A stretch of DNA of 64,000 nucleotides from Halichondria panicea. Its lineage: Eukaryota; Porifera; Demospongiae; Suberitida; Halichondriidae. Location: NCBI RefSeq assembly GCF_963675165.1, contig NC_087377.1, forward strand, positions 6,465,122 to 6,529,121, in the 5' to 3' direction. The notes beneath the pieces were generated by a model. That model had not been told where the DNA came from and ran no database searches. It saw only the letters and a program-made list of their open reading frames with translations. Both the position numbers and the translations under genes were made by a program. How positions within the stretch are numbered: the first letter of the stretch is position 1; each line of letters begins with the position of its first letter. This document shows positions 10,966-25,300 of the stretch, piece after piece.

Positions 10966-13900
10966 ATGGCTGCTGTGTTTGAGACGTATGAGAAACAGTT
11001 TGCCACCATCACTGCTGACATCACAGCAAGGATTGGAAGGATACCCAACTTAGTTGGAAGTAAGTTATTGGCAAAGGTGACTAGGCTTATAAAACTGTCC
11101 CTCGTACTCTATACCGACTAGACTGTGGACGTACCGTACTTATAGCGACTCTCTAAAGATGCACACCCTCTTGATCTTGCATCTAAAAGTAGCGACAGCT
11201 GCGTTTACAATTATTTTTTAAAGTCGCGTTCTAAATAGAGGTAAATGTAGCATTGCCAAAACTTTTTTTATTTCGCATCCTAAATGGAGGTCAAATGGTT
11301 GCTACCTATACCTAGCCTTGATTCTATATAGGTCGCTTGAAACGAGACTGGAATCGAGGCTAGTAGAGTACACCTAGTATACCTCGACCGCCTTCCAATT
11401 AGATGTGACCCTCTACATACGCAACACAAGCACTTCAACAACCTCCAACTAAAAAATTATAATAATAATTATATACACTACCGTAAGACCTCGATTTAAG
11501 GCGACCCTCCAAATATGCGACACCCAGGAGCTTCAGCAATTTTCTGACCTCTAAAAATAGCGACAGCTGCGTTGATAATTATTTTTTAATGTCGCGTTCT
11601 AAATAGAGGTAAATGTAGCCACTGCCTAGCCTCGATTGTAGCCCACTGGAAAATCAATGTTTTTAAGCGGCCTGAAATCGAGGCAAGTAGACTTTGTAAA
11701 GTTACCTCTAATTAGATACGACCCTCTAAATATGCGACACCAGGACTTCAATATAATTTTTCAACATCCAAAAGAAGCGACCTCTGGCTTCGTAATTATT
11801 AAAAAGTGTCGCTTTAAATGAGGTCTTACGGTAGTTAAGGAGGAAAGTACATAAGGTTGATTTTACTAAGCAGATGAGCTGCTGGTAGTAGAAAGTGCTG
11901 TAAAGGTCACCTGATAGCATGTTACCAAGGGAACACGACAGTACATGTGATTATAATCATATTAAGGGTGATACTATGACTATTGCACTCAAGTGTTTAT
12001 ACGATAAAATTATAATGATATTATATGCAGCTGAAAAAAAGACGGCGGTGGGTGTGGTCCAAGGAAACATTGACGAGGCCGGAGAGCTGGTAAGTACATG
12101 CCCGTAAATCTGTCTGTTATTATACCTCGGTGCGCATGCGCAAGCGAGGTATACGGTAGTGTGTTTGTGTGTCTGTGTGTGTGTGTGTGTGTGTGTGTGT
12201 GTGTGTGTGTGTGTGTGTGTGTGTGTGTGTGTGTGTGTGTGTAGACTGCTACAGCTGCTCAAGGATGAATCAAGTGCAAGTAAGAGTTTCTATAGGCTTC
12301 TAGTCATGTTTACTTGGATTTTAATTCGTAGATTTGCAAAATAATGCTTCGTTCTCGAGTTATGCCTAGTTTTGCTTACTTGGAATGCCATTGCAGCCTT
12401 TTCAGAAGAGCACGTTGCCAAACTTGTTTACCGAGTGTTGTTACTCTACTTAGTAGTTAGCTCTGCACTAGAACGCTAGCTATTGGTGGCTGCAAGAGTG
12501 AGAAGAGAGCTACAAGGCTCTGCTAATGCAGCCATTAATTTTAGACATTTTACTTTTGGCATCGATCGTTTTTAACAACAATCATGGTCAATCATTACCC
12601 ACTCCCTGAGTTTTTGCAGCAAAATTAAATTGTTTATCATGTGTATTTAATAGTAGCTTTATATTATGTAGCTGTGGCATCTCCACCGAGGCATCAGCAA
12701 ATGCGGTGCTTTCATTAATATTATAAGGCTTGATCTGATTACAACCTACTTAAGGTTTATATTTCAGCAGCAGCTTTTAAATTAATTGTTGGTCAATAAT
12801 TTGCCTTTAGCTACATGTACATGTATACATGTATAATTATGTCTGTAACAGACACTATAATCATAACAACAAATACACACACACAACAAATGAAACACAC
12901 GCACACACTACAGCTTGAGCAGATGGACTTGGAATTACATGATGCTTCAACCGACGTTCGCCCTGCACTGATACGCAGAGTAGAAAACTACAAAAGGGAA
13001 CTGTCTCGTCTCAGAAAAGAATTTGTAAGTGAATACGCAAGTACATGTACCTGTACATGCATTGTAATGCCGATTTGGTTGAAATTCATTTACACTAAAT
13101 AAAAATGTTGCGGTAGAACCGAACCCCTGTAACAGGCACCCCATACGAAAGGCCAGTAACTCTGATACACAAGTATAAAGCCAGGTCTCAAATGAACATA
13201 GCTACCTCGTGTATAACAGCCAAAACTTTGTTCCCCAAAGGTGTCAGATACTGTAACAGTGTATAAAGTTTTTGTACCTCGAGGCGTAGCTGTACGAATG
13301 ATACGGTAAAAGCTTTATATGTGTGTGCGTGCGTGTGTGTGTGTTCCAGCTGTAACTGCTCAACTATTGCAATGCGACGAAGTAGTGTGTGTGTGTGTGT
13401 GTGTGTGTGTGTGTGTGTGTGTGTGTGTGTGTGTGTGTGTGTGTGTGTGTGTGTGTGTGTGTGTGTGTGTGTGTGTGTGTGTGTGTGTGTGTGTGTGTGT
13501 GTGTGTGTGTGTGTGTGTGTGTGTGTGTGTGTGTGTGTGTGTGTGTGTGTGTGTGTGTGTGTGTGTGTGTGTGTGTGTGTGTGTGTGTGTGTGTGTGTGT
13601 GTGTGTGTGTGTGTGTGCGCGCGCGCGCCTCTCTCTCTCTCTCTCTCTCTCTCTCTCTCTCTCTCTCTCTCTCTCTCTCTCTCTCTCTCTCTCTCTCTCT
13701 CTCTCTCTCTCTCTCTCTCTCTCTCTCTCTCTCTCTCTCTCTCTCTCTCTCTCTCTCTCTCTCTCTCTCTCTCTCTCTCTCTCTCTCTCTCTCTCTCTCT
13801 CTCTCTCTCTCTCTCTCTCTCTCTCTCTCTCTCTCTCTCTCTCTCTCTCTCTCTCTCTCTCTCTCTCTCTCTCTCTCTCTGTGTGTGTGTCTCTCTCTCT

Positions 13901-22300: not shown

Positions 22301-25300
22301 TGCAAATAATATCGCATAGCTGGTAATTTTCGGGGTTGACCTCAAACCTCAAACTTGTAATGCCTCGAAAAATAATGGTGATACATGTACCAGGAGTGCA
22401 TGATATTCCTACACTCTTGGTAGTACCCATGATGTTTCCCTGCTGTGTACAAGACTGTTTCTCTGAGTACATGTCTATTGTTCAGGGCTGGCTTATCCAA
22501 TTAAAGTTGTTTATGTTGTGACCCTCAATGTGCAGTTAACTAATTTCATCAACACTCTTAGACAGAACTACAACAACTCTAATGTTTGGAAACTTACAGT
22601 ATAAACTCAGTGCTGTGGATGAGATTTAAACATGTACATGTACGTACTGGCGTGGCAAATACGTACACACAGGTTGCTAAGTGAAGCACTCTGCAACAAA
22701 ATGAATATACAGTGTACATGAATTGTTATGGTAGCAGAGCTTACAAAGTAGAACTAGTGCACCTGTAAGTAGATTTGCCTGGCTTGTATGGCCTTGTTAA
22801 TATTATTGGATTAAGCCTACATGTGCATGTTGTTATAATAAGCAGATTCCCTCCAACCACAACCATGAACAGTTTGTACATGCCCTCACAAGCACACATG
22901 TGCATGCACACCCATAATTTTATAGGAAAGTTTCGCAAGCACCCACAGTAACTGGTATACCGTATAGATACCCAACTGCTGGTTTCCTACCAGTTGACCA
23001 ATCAGGTTTTAGACCTGCCGCTGGCTACCCCTTTATGATTCCCGGGCAGTATGCAGTGGCTACTCGTTATCAACAGGTGAGCAGTCTACATTGTATGTGA
23101 TATATACATGTACGATCATGTATATACTGTAGCTACCGTTTTAATTTCTTGGAACAAGTACCTCAAAAGTTCATTCAAGAACTTGGCACACAGAAGCCAC
23201 TGCATGAATGTTAAGTGCTGTATAATTGTACTCAATTAGTGAATGTTTTCAGTTGTTCGAAGCCAAAAATAGCCACGAACCTTCATGGCTCGAAAGCATT
23301 GCCGTGTTTGCACATTGGTACTGTATAATAAGGTTAGAGCAGCTGTGCTTGCATACCTTACAAGTGGCTCTGAAATGAGTCTCACTGTAGTTTCCTCTCC
23401 CTCCCTCTTTAGTTTACTACCTTCGGACAGCCAGCCCCTAATGCAGCAGTACAACCCAACTCAGGCCTTGTACAACCACAGGTGCGCATGACAGTCAAAG
23501 TCTGTAGTATGAAAATTGTATGGTGCCCTATATTAATAGAGGCAGTGTACGTGTACAGTATGTGTGATCAGTGTGATTCTGACCACAGGTGAAAGAGAAG
23601 AAGCCGCACATCAAAAAACCACTAAATGCATTCATGATCTTCATGAAAACCAAGAGAGCGGAAGTTATAAAGGAGTGCACGTTGAAAGAGTCTGCAGCCA
23701 TTAACCAGATACTCGGCAAAATGGTGAGTGAGTATTATTCTATTCAGTGATTCGTATATAATTATTATATACATTGTAGATTCCTTTGCCTCTTGTCATG
23801 GTGGTTACTATCTTTGATTCCATAACAGTGGCACGCGCTGGATCGCAGTGAACAAGCCACGTACTATGAAATGGCAAGAGAAGAGAGAGCGAGACATATG
23901 CAGGTAGTTACAACAGACTAAAACAATTAATGCATTAATTACTATAATAATTACACATGCAGGCATGTAATTACTTTATTTGGCGGATATGTATAGGAAT
24001 TGATACCCGCATACCTGTACTTGAGACTTGTTTGTGTACGTGTCCATACAACAACACTGTTTATGATTGCCCTATATGAATACATTCCTTGTACATGTAG
24101 TATAGATACAAGCAATCACGTACACACTAAAACTTTTATCAGAAGCTTTTTGTTGCACGTTACACTGTACTTAAATGTCTGCATTAATGCCGTCCTCTAA
24201 CAGATGTACCCTGGCTGGTCAGCACGCGACAACTATGCTGTTCACAAGAAGAGGAAAAAGAGAAAAGCCAAATCTGAGAAGGGGAATGACGAAGGTATGG
24301 ACAGTATCACTAACTATGACAGTCAGGGTTTCATGCAGAGGGGGAGGGCCATGCAAGCATGGGATTCCCCCTGGAATTATGTCATAACAACAACAAAAAA
24401 TTTAATATGGTTGACTTAACGGCTTGAAGCACACAAAACAAATTACAATCATTCCTCAAGATTTTTTACTGGGTGGAGGGGCTACTCAATATCTCCAGGG
24501 CCTTACGCCCATCGTTATCCCCCCGCGCTAAGAGTCCTGTATGAAACCCTGAGTCAATCAAATACATATATTTGCTAAGCCCTTTGCACATTGGTCCTTA
24601 TTATTTTGACCTATACATGTACAAGTCATGTAGCAATACTCAATACGCGTTGGATAAAATTAAAACTGCTTGTGAAGAAACGAGTTAGGTAGCTCACAGT
24701 CATTGTACTTGGGGTGTCCAAATCACTTGTACTTTGTTGTTCCAGTTGAGGGTTCGACTGACAGCTGTGCCCTGGGTGAGAGTGAAGGAGAGAGGTGTCC
24801 TGATAAACATCCAGACAACTCCTCTAACTGGTGTGCACTTTGCAGGTGAGTAAGACTGTAACCCATGCATGCAGGCCCTCGCATAATTACTGTGATGTAT
24901 ACAATCTTGCATCACCTACGTACCACCACACATGCATGATGATTTACACCTTGTACCACAACTCAGAAGAGAATAAGTATACATCCATGAACTTATAATT
25001 ATAACCACTATGATAATCCTCATTATGCATGTACAGTGGCATTACACTACTATATCACTTTTGTGCAGACGTAAAAGAAAGTGTGTCAAACGAAATAACG
25101 ACGATGAGCTAGATATCTCGGATGTCACTAAAAATGGAAAAGTTGCTTCTATTTTGGGAACTGTTGGACAGGATCGCAATGAAGACAGTACATATGTCAC
25201 TACAGAATGCCGGGAGGATGTCATTGTGTTGTCAGAAACTAACCAATCAGAATGCAGTATCATCCAAGCTCCAATCACATTACAAACAATCCCAACATAA
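19302..25300 (+). CDS. TCF: TCF/LEF transcription factor with C-clamp
   Basis: Twelve coding exons (19302-19335, 20150-20289, 21052-21094, 21653-21705, 22191-22285, 22926-23076, 23413-23481, 23589-23723, 23829-23903, 24204-24294, 24746-24845, 25069-25300) give 405 residues. Residues about 13-30 ([18 protein letters not shown]) resemble the acidic beta-catenin-binding segment. The middle is Pro/Gly-rich. The HMG box (about 199-275: [44 protein letters not shown]) is nearly identical to LEF1/TCF7L2. It is followed by a basic tail [11 protein letters not shown]-clamp has Cys 313, 325, 328 and 334 ([12 protein letters not shown]); its first spacing is one residue shorter than the usual form. TCF binds CTTTGWW sites, repressing with Groucho or activating with beta-catenin in Wnt signalling. 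Three such sites lie in its own promoter. The end after the C-clamp is not recognised. Confidence 0.97.

Follow-up and report, generated by a model that had tools for sequence, protein, structure and literature searches.

The stretch examined here, 64,000 nucleotides of contig NC_087377.1 of the sponge Halichondria panicea (positions 6,465,122 to 6,529,121 of the forward strand; hereafter the window, in whose own coordinates features are given), carries a gene for the SNARE protein VTI1A followed by a gene of the TCF/LEF family. Both gene models were predicted from the genomic sequence by joining exons at GT-AG sites, and in both the predicted spliced frame is open from ATG to stop:

10966..18663, + strand: VTI1A, 7 exons, 222 amino acids
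10966-11059, 12031-12089, 12914-13024, 14668-14748, 16030-16185, 17533-17594 and 18558-18663, + strand: the exons of VTI1A
19302..25300, + strand: TCF/LEF gene (TCF below), 12 exons, 405 amino acids

The first-pass annotation of this stretch had placed TCF directly after VTI1A, on the same (+) strand and about 640 bp away; by the spliced open frames the spacing from the VTI1A stop codon to the TCF ATG is exactly 638 bp.

The predicted SNARE gene is VTI1A rather than VTI1B: its product contains both V-SNARE domains (Pfam PF05008 V-SNARE, 9.6e-22; PF12352 V-SNARE_C, 1.7e-14), and its top matches among PDB chains, through which all comparison with human proteins was made, are to VTI1A (2.8e-20 and 3.1e-18), with VTI1B reaching just 5.5e-4. 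No VTI1B gene was found among the scored VTI1A matches in the genome from which the window comes, which comprises 131.5 Mb in 39 contigs. A SNARE match on another contig (C8, locus L011) was considered as a VTI1B control and dropped, its sequence resembling that of GOSR1, which we take it to be. The predicted HMG protein belongs to the TCF/LEF family, its HMG box (amino acids 203-271; Pfam PF00505, 2.3e-20) being nearer to that of LEF1 (PDB, 1.7e-36, 129.2 bits) than to those of capicua (4e-12, 49.0 bits) or the top SOX protein (45.0 bits). A cysteine-rich basic motif 3' of the box, present in both copies of the gene described below, is presumably C-clamp-like by comparison with the consensus of the C-clamp, a feature of invertebrate TCF proteins and of the long isoforms. 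The N-terminus is acidic and by eye resembles the beta-catenin-binding region, with no Pfam match and a non-significant top PDB match (E = 0.4). The HMG region has no relatives in collections of non-animal genome contigs and viral contigs, and the C-terminal part of VTI1A has none in the viral-contig collection, which holds no animals.

A second copy of the pair

Searches of the same genome with the HMG and SNARE exons revealed a second TCF and a second VTI1A about 300 kb away, on the window's contig (C1 below) but on the opposite strand, with their relative order unchanged. Among the scored matches, all those to VTI1A or TCF of at least 65% identity lie on C1, at the two copies or at one TCF fragment. 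The pair is part of a larger repeated segment:

10089..30134: duplicated block, present inverted at C1:6798712-6777497; identity 92.3-96.4%, counting indels, in pieces longer than 1 kb

The second-copy VTI1A is open and encodes 222 amino acids; in the second-copy TCF, exons 1-11 are open, and an in-frame loss of 126 bp from the last exon leaves the stop unchanged. Between the copies dN/dS is 0.37 for VTI1A (9 non-synonymous and 7 synonymous differences) and 0.42 for TCF (6 and 4, over 354 codons). The coding and indel comparison took alignment pieces of at least 500 bits, outside which the 126-bp TCF deletion falls, and within them we count a single indel (3 bp) in 1768 aligned coding bases and 158 in 16,655 non-coding bases; no frame-shifting coding indel was seen, against about 13.9 expected. 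Both copies seem to have been under selection, or else they are haplotypes. Repeats and a deletion blur the comparison of the copies in VTI1A introns 2 and 3 and in the last TCF exon.

Several shorter matches accompany the block. At C1:6753158-6753284 (L023), 127 bp of the last TCF exon recur with 98% identity, and nearly the same stretch is missing from the second TCF; a 45-bp piece spanning the TCF start codon lies at C10:2949871-2949915. Adjoining the left end of the second copy (C1:6798712) is a short piece resembling the first exon of the H2A.Z-like gene described below, and just past its other end, at C1:6776391-6776700, is a 319-bp, 81% match to window positions 35633-35928. The copying may have been more complex than one step.

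VTI1A introns and clusters of TCF/LEF motifs

The introns of VTI1A had been described in the first-pass annotation as unusually large. Introns 1-6 measure 971, 824, 1643, 1281, 1347 and 963 bp, and against the TCF introns (105-814 bp, versus 824-1643 bp) the description holds; part of the size is nevertheless mundane, because intron 2 contains a dispersed repeat and intron 3 a microsatellite:

12119..12716: dispersed repeat of about 600 bp in VTI1A intron 2, with dozens of matches on many contigs (among the 40 best of 7313 candidates)
13386..13920: TG/TC microsatellite in VTI1A intron 3, about 500 bp long, read from the sequence

The intron 2 repeat is missing from the second copy, in which that intron measures 194 bp, compared with 824 bp in the window. 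Over a local set of 264 kb, comprising the window and 200 kb around the second copy, locally repeated sequence makes up 22.8% of the VTI1A introns, 0% of the TCF introns and 18.5% of the remaining window; within VTI1A it accounts for 70% of intron 2 and 36.5% of intron 3, and introns 5 and 6 are large without any.

Taking CTTTGWW to be the core motif of TCF/LEF proteins, we find it clustered at two places in and beside VTI1A:

18664..19301: the 638-bp gap between the two genes; six CTTTGWW within 18997-19276, two of the six being CCTTTGATC (by count and shuffles)
16646..16810, + strand: candidate cis element in VTI1A intron 5; four CTTTGWW at 16673-16760, the same in the second copy

In the gap six motifs are observed versus 0.616 expected, and none of 1000 shuffles contained as many. 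All six span 280 bp, the last beginning 32 bp 5' of the TCF ATG, and this is the single cluster of its kind (six CTTTGWW in 280 bp) in 242,784 non-redundant bp, with none in 60 shuffles and P = 0.0015 under uniform scatter. Only one of 420 permuted motif families reaches six in the gap, and that one is CTTTGWW itself. The gap cluster is not a dispersed repeat, as no match was found elsewhere in the genome with all three candidates scored.

The candidate element in intron 5 lies about 2.5 kb 5' of the TCF start codon. No other four CTTTGWW as close as these, within 88 bp, occur in the 242,784 bp (shuffles average 0.033; uniform scatter, P = 0.023), and 3 of the 420 permuted families have four equally close sites in a VTI1A intron. 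Positions 16646-16810 also form the longest run free of differences between the copies that lies wholly within a VTI1A intron, longer runs being found in TCF and in the dynein gene downstream. The cluster is not repeated within the local 264 kb; nor is it covered by genome matches among the 40 best of 7313 candidates, an absence which is weak because only those 40 were scored. The motif CCTTTGATS occurs three times in the window (16692, 19152 and 19269), each time inside one of the two clusters, and six times in the 200 kb around the second copy, where three sites are the counterparts of those in the window and three lie elsewhere. All ten CTTTGWW motifs of the two clusters are preserved in the second copy.

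Probable common ancestry of the pair and a possible constraint

The human order is ACSL5, ZDHHC6, VTI1A, MIR4295, LOC103344931, TCF7L2, HABP2, NRAP, CASP7 (PMC4880969), and VTI1A, RP11-57H14.3 and TCF7L2 lie in that order within 721 kbp, with VTI1A and TCF7L2 on the same strand (PMC3946716). The human genes, which had been called adjacent in the first-pass annotation, are thus neighbours among protein-coding genes, in the order and on the strands claimed, but not strictly adjacent, since RP11-57H14.3 and a microRNA intervene. We take RP11-57H14.3 and LOC103344931 to be identical. The window therefore resembles the human locus at 10q25 in the order and orientation of both protein-coding genes and differs from it in scale, the window pair occupying 15 kb with a gap of 638 bp; in the extra gene and microRNA between the human genes; in the duplication of the window pair; and in the identified neighbours on either side. 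Those identified beside the window pair, in an annotation that excludes the stretches at 4.2-9 kb and 31-43 kb, are:

9319..10218, - strand: H2A.Z-like histone gene, upstream of and head to head with VTI1A (open frames)
29221..29526, - strand: exon of an axonemal dynein intermediate chain (DNAI1-like) gene, downstream of TCF (PDB, dynein axonemal intermediate chain 1, 7.7e-21; WD40)

The histone gene is presumed to be H2A.Z-like from its resemblance to the sequence of H2A.Z; its start codon and that of VTI1A are about 750 bp apart, and the stretch between them lies in the duplicated block. The DNAI1-like gene, an exon of which lies inside the block, probably extends beyond 30134.

For one named pair, the chance of occurring in a given order and orientation is about 2.5e-5 (arithmetic, assuming 20,000 genes). 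Because a chance match is so unlikely, shared ancestry is the best reading, and we infer that the order and orientation of VTI1A and TCF very probably derive from the common ancestor of this animal and vertebrates. The earlier proposal of ancient microsynteny is partly supported, in that the two genes agree with human in identity, order and orientation; the identified flanking genes differ from those in human. Ancient pairs are documented in sponges: in the work of Gaiti and others on Amphimedon, 60 of 80 reported ancient units were confirmed, enhancer signatures were found in adults at 43 of the 60 confirmed pairs, and enhancer-bearing introns are longer than others (PMC5429095). As described in the same paper, ancient metazoan units such as Scaper-Isl of Amphimedon likewise join a housekeeping gene to a developmental transcription factor, and the introns of the bystander hold DNA that may be regulatory; the window pair differs in being known from sequence alone. 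Among the papers listed in literature searches for VTI1A or vti1, we recognised no report of VTI1A-TCF as an ancient pair, and neither TCF nor VTI1 is named in the main texts of PMC5429095, PMC10719294, PMC8851819, PMC12221973 and PMC5560861. The pair may already be in a published table. The main list of ancient gene pairs is said to be that of Irimia 2012.

What may have held the two genes together is suggested by the motif clusters. In the ancestral pair, the housekeeping SNARE gene VTI1A would have been followed by the Wnt effector gene TCF, both lineages inheriting this arrangement, and the brake on separation would likely have been cis-regulatory DNA of TCF located partly within VTI1A. 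Judging from the motifs, the TCF protein probably binds to a compact promoter within the 638-bp gap, feeding back on TCF itself, and the second cluster, about 2.5 kb upstream in VTI1A intron 5, may assist this feedback. A break between the genes would then sever TCF from the intron 5 element, so that selection would favour keeping the pair. Later, as the assembly shows, the 20-kb segment carrying the two genes was duplicated at a distance of about 300 kb and in inverted orientation, and the frames of both copies stayed open. Taken as a whole, this reading, ancestral microsynteny with TCF autoregulation as the candidate constraint, stands in our judgement at an even balance; regulatory constraint as the reason why the pair stayed together falls slightly short of that, and it is doubtful that the candidate element of intron 5 is a real TCF enhancer. 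The promoters of vertebrate LEF1 and TCF7 are autoregulated by TCF/LEF, and the window resembles them in having TCF/LEF motifs clustered immediately 5' of a TCF/LEF gene; it differs in that its elements are known from motifs alone and in that the intron cluster sits in the neighbouring gene. In the sponge Ephydatia, distal elements have a median distance of 3.8 kb to start sites, and no chromatin loops were found (PMC12221973), so that an element about 2.5 kb from TCF would be typical.

Should the pair date back to the origin of animals, a Wnt effector gene would have been tied to one neighbour for some 600-700 million years, and a cluster of autoregulatory sites within that neighbour would be a simple reason for so lasting a linkage. 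Variants in the human VTI1A introns may act on TCF7L2, and the linkage considered here bears on their interpretation. It would be going further, and we think it quite unlikely, to place VTI1A-TCF among the oldest regulatory blocks of animals, with control of TCF by itself through its promoter and a VTI1A intron predating the split of this animal from vertebrates and making the SNARE gene immovable; if this were so, human VTI1A-intron variants and VTI1A-TCF7L2 fusions would be late echoes of an ancient block. The closely similar second copy offers a natural pair of loci in which to see which non-coding pieces persist. The second pair, the repeat content of the large introns and the TCF/LEF-type motif clusters are new beyond the first-pass annotation.

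Several points weigh against autoregulation as the constraint, and some against ancestry itself. The motif tests were post hoc, the clusters having been noticed on reading the gap and tested afterwards, and the CTTTGWW core is short. Outside the pair, five motifs cluster at 2104-2660 and four at 8904-9143, close to the 3' end of the H2A.Z-like gene. An insertion in the second copy widens the promoter six to 379 bp, versus 280 bp in the window; motifs of the block are mostly kept regardless (27 of 32 by our count), and the two copies are not independent of each other. By our estimate, runs free of differences are not exceptional at the overall rate of difference, and as evidence of conserved non-coding elements they were set aside as too weak on their own, since about 3% changes per base would yield them by chance. 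VTI1A introns 1, 4, 5 and 6, to which the divergence test was applied with introns 2 and 3 left out, differ between the copies by 2.36% versus 1.35% for the TCF introns (P = 0.0004), and substitutions in the VTI1A exons (16 in 669) are on a par with those in the same four introns (104 in 4413). That VTI1A introns are less alike than TCF introns argues that most of their sequence would be free to change, which is compatible with one short element. The ancestry inference, in turn, rests on two ends, the window genome and human. No additional gene of the human locus is among the identified neighbours of the pair, and DRMBL (the domain of DCLRE1A) and GPAT_C (that of GPAM) have matches on C2, C11 and C15 and none on C1; with both of these human neighbour families off the contig, wider synteny with human 10q25 was dropped.

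The idea that TCF control elements lie in VTI1A introns, raised in the first-pass annotation, has thus gained a four-motif cluster in intron 5, inside the longest difference-free stretch of VTI1A intron, and lost ground with the repeats, whose share is highest in introns 2 and 3 and of which the one in intron 2 is specific to one copy, and with the divergence of introns 1, 4, 5 and 6. Among the alternatives, the one that survives best is that the pair is ancestral but that nothing in VTI1A serves TCF, which would be run by its own short promoter, few breaks having fallen within a compact 15-kb unit. The strongest motif cluster lies within the 638-bp gap, so the promoter may suffice, and the VTI1A introns tolerate a repeat insertion and a microsatellite and have changed between the copies more than the TCF introns. 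Against such inertia stand the second cluster, located in the run of intron 5 that is the longest in any VTI1A intron without differences, and the human locus, in which the order is kept across the 721 kbp spanned by VTI1A, RP11-57H14.3 and TCF7L2 (PMC3946716), which compactness would not account for. We regard it as possible, with some weight, but not as probable.

A different question is whether the second copy is a true duplication or the other haplotype, misplaced in the assembly. The copies differ by about 2% substitutions and about 9 indels per kb, a divergence plausible for two haplotypes of an outbred sponge, and dN/dS and open frames would come out alike in either case. Against this, for the two flank pieces searched (window 4200-9200 and 30200-35200) the 40 top-scored candidates of each search are short dispersed-repeat matches elsewhere and include no long second copy. 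Moreover, no runs of N occur in the window or in the 200 kb around the second copy, which lies without gaps in sequence unlike the window flanks beyond repeats, and in those 200 kb the H2A.Z-like gene is represented by its first exon alone (tblastn). We consider a misplaced haplotype improbable; on the assembly, other flanks and unduplicated neighbouring sequence mark the block as a segmental duplication. The window seems to be the parental locus, because the second locus has only that first exon of the H2A.Z-like gene and because the block's opposite end falls within or beside the dynein gene. Being recent, the second copy gives no independent evidence of ancient linkage.

Finally, it is very improbable that VTI1A and TCF were joined separately in this lineage and in vertebrates, by chance or secondary re-linkage: every neighbour pair of the window was open to comparison with human, shared ancient chromosomes make a random meeting likelier, and no further human neighbour was identified beside the pair, two human neighbour families being on other contigs, yet the chance stays below 1% even when about 10 window pairs are allowed for and shared ancient chromosomes raise it 25-fold (arithmetic), and ancient pairs are documented in a sponge by the units confirmed in Amphimedon.

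Other features of the window

Between 54366 and 63799 the same Rieske-oxygenase-like frames occur on both strands, for example at 58151-58651 (-) and 60504-62759 (+), two of them confirmed as Rieske, which suggests a local inverted duplication. Positions 1192-4120 encode a RIG-I-like helicase with a RIG-I C-terminal domain, and the frame preceding it has a weak Death match under the curated cut-off. At 44436-49150 (-), ankyrin repeats are found together with weak matches to a Roc-like GTPase and to Death, possibly in a single gene. A dispersed repeat of about 200 bp at 33698-33918 occurs on many contigs, with mostly 86-90% identity among the matches listed (40 of 1371 candidates scored).

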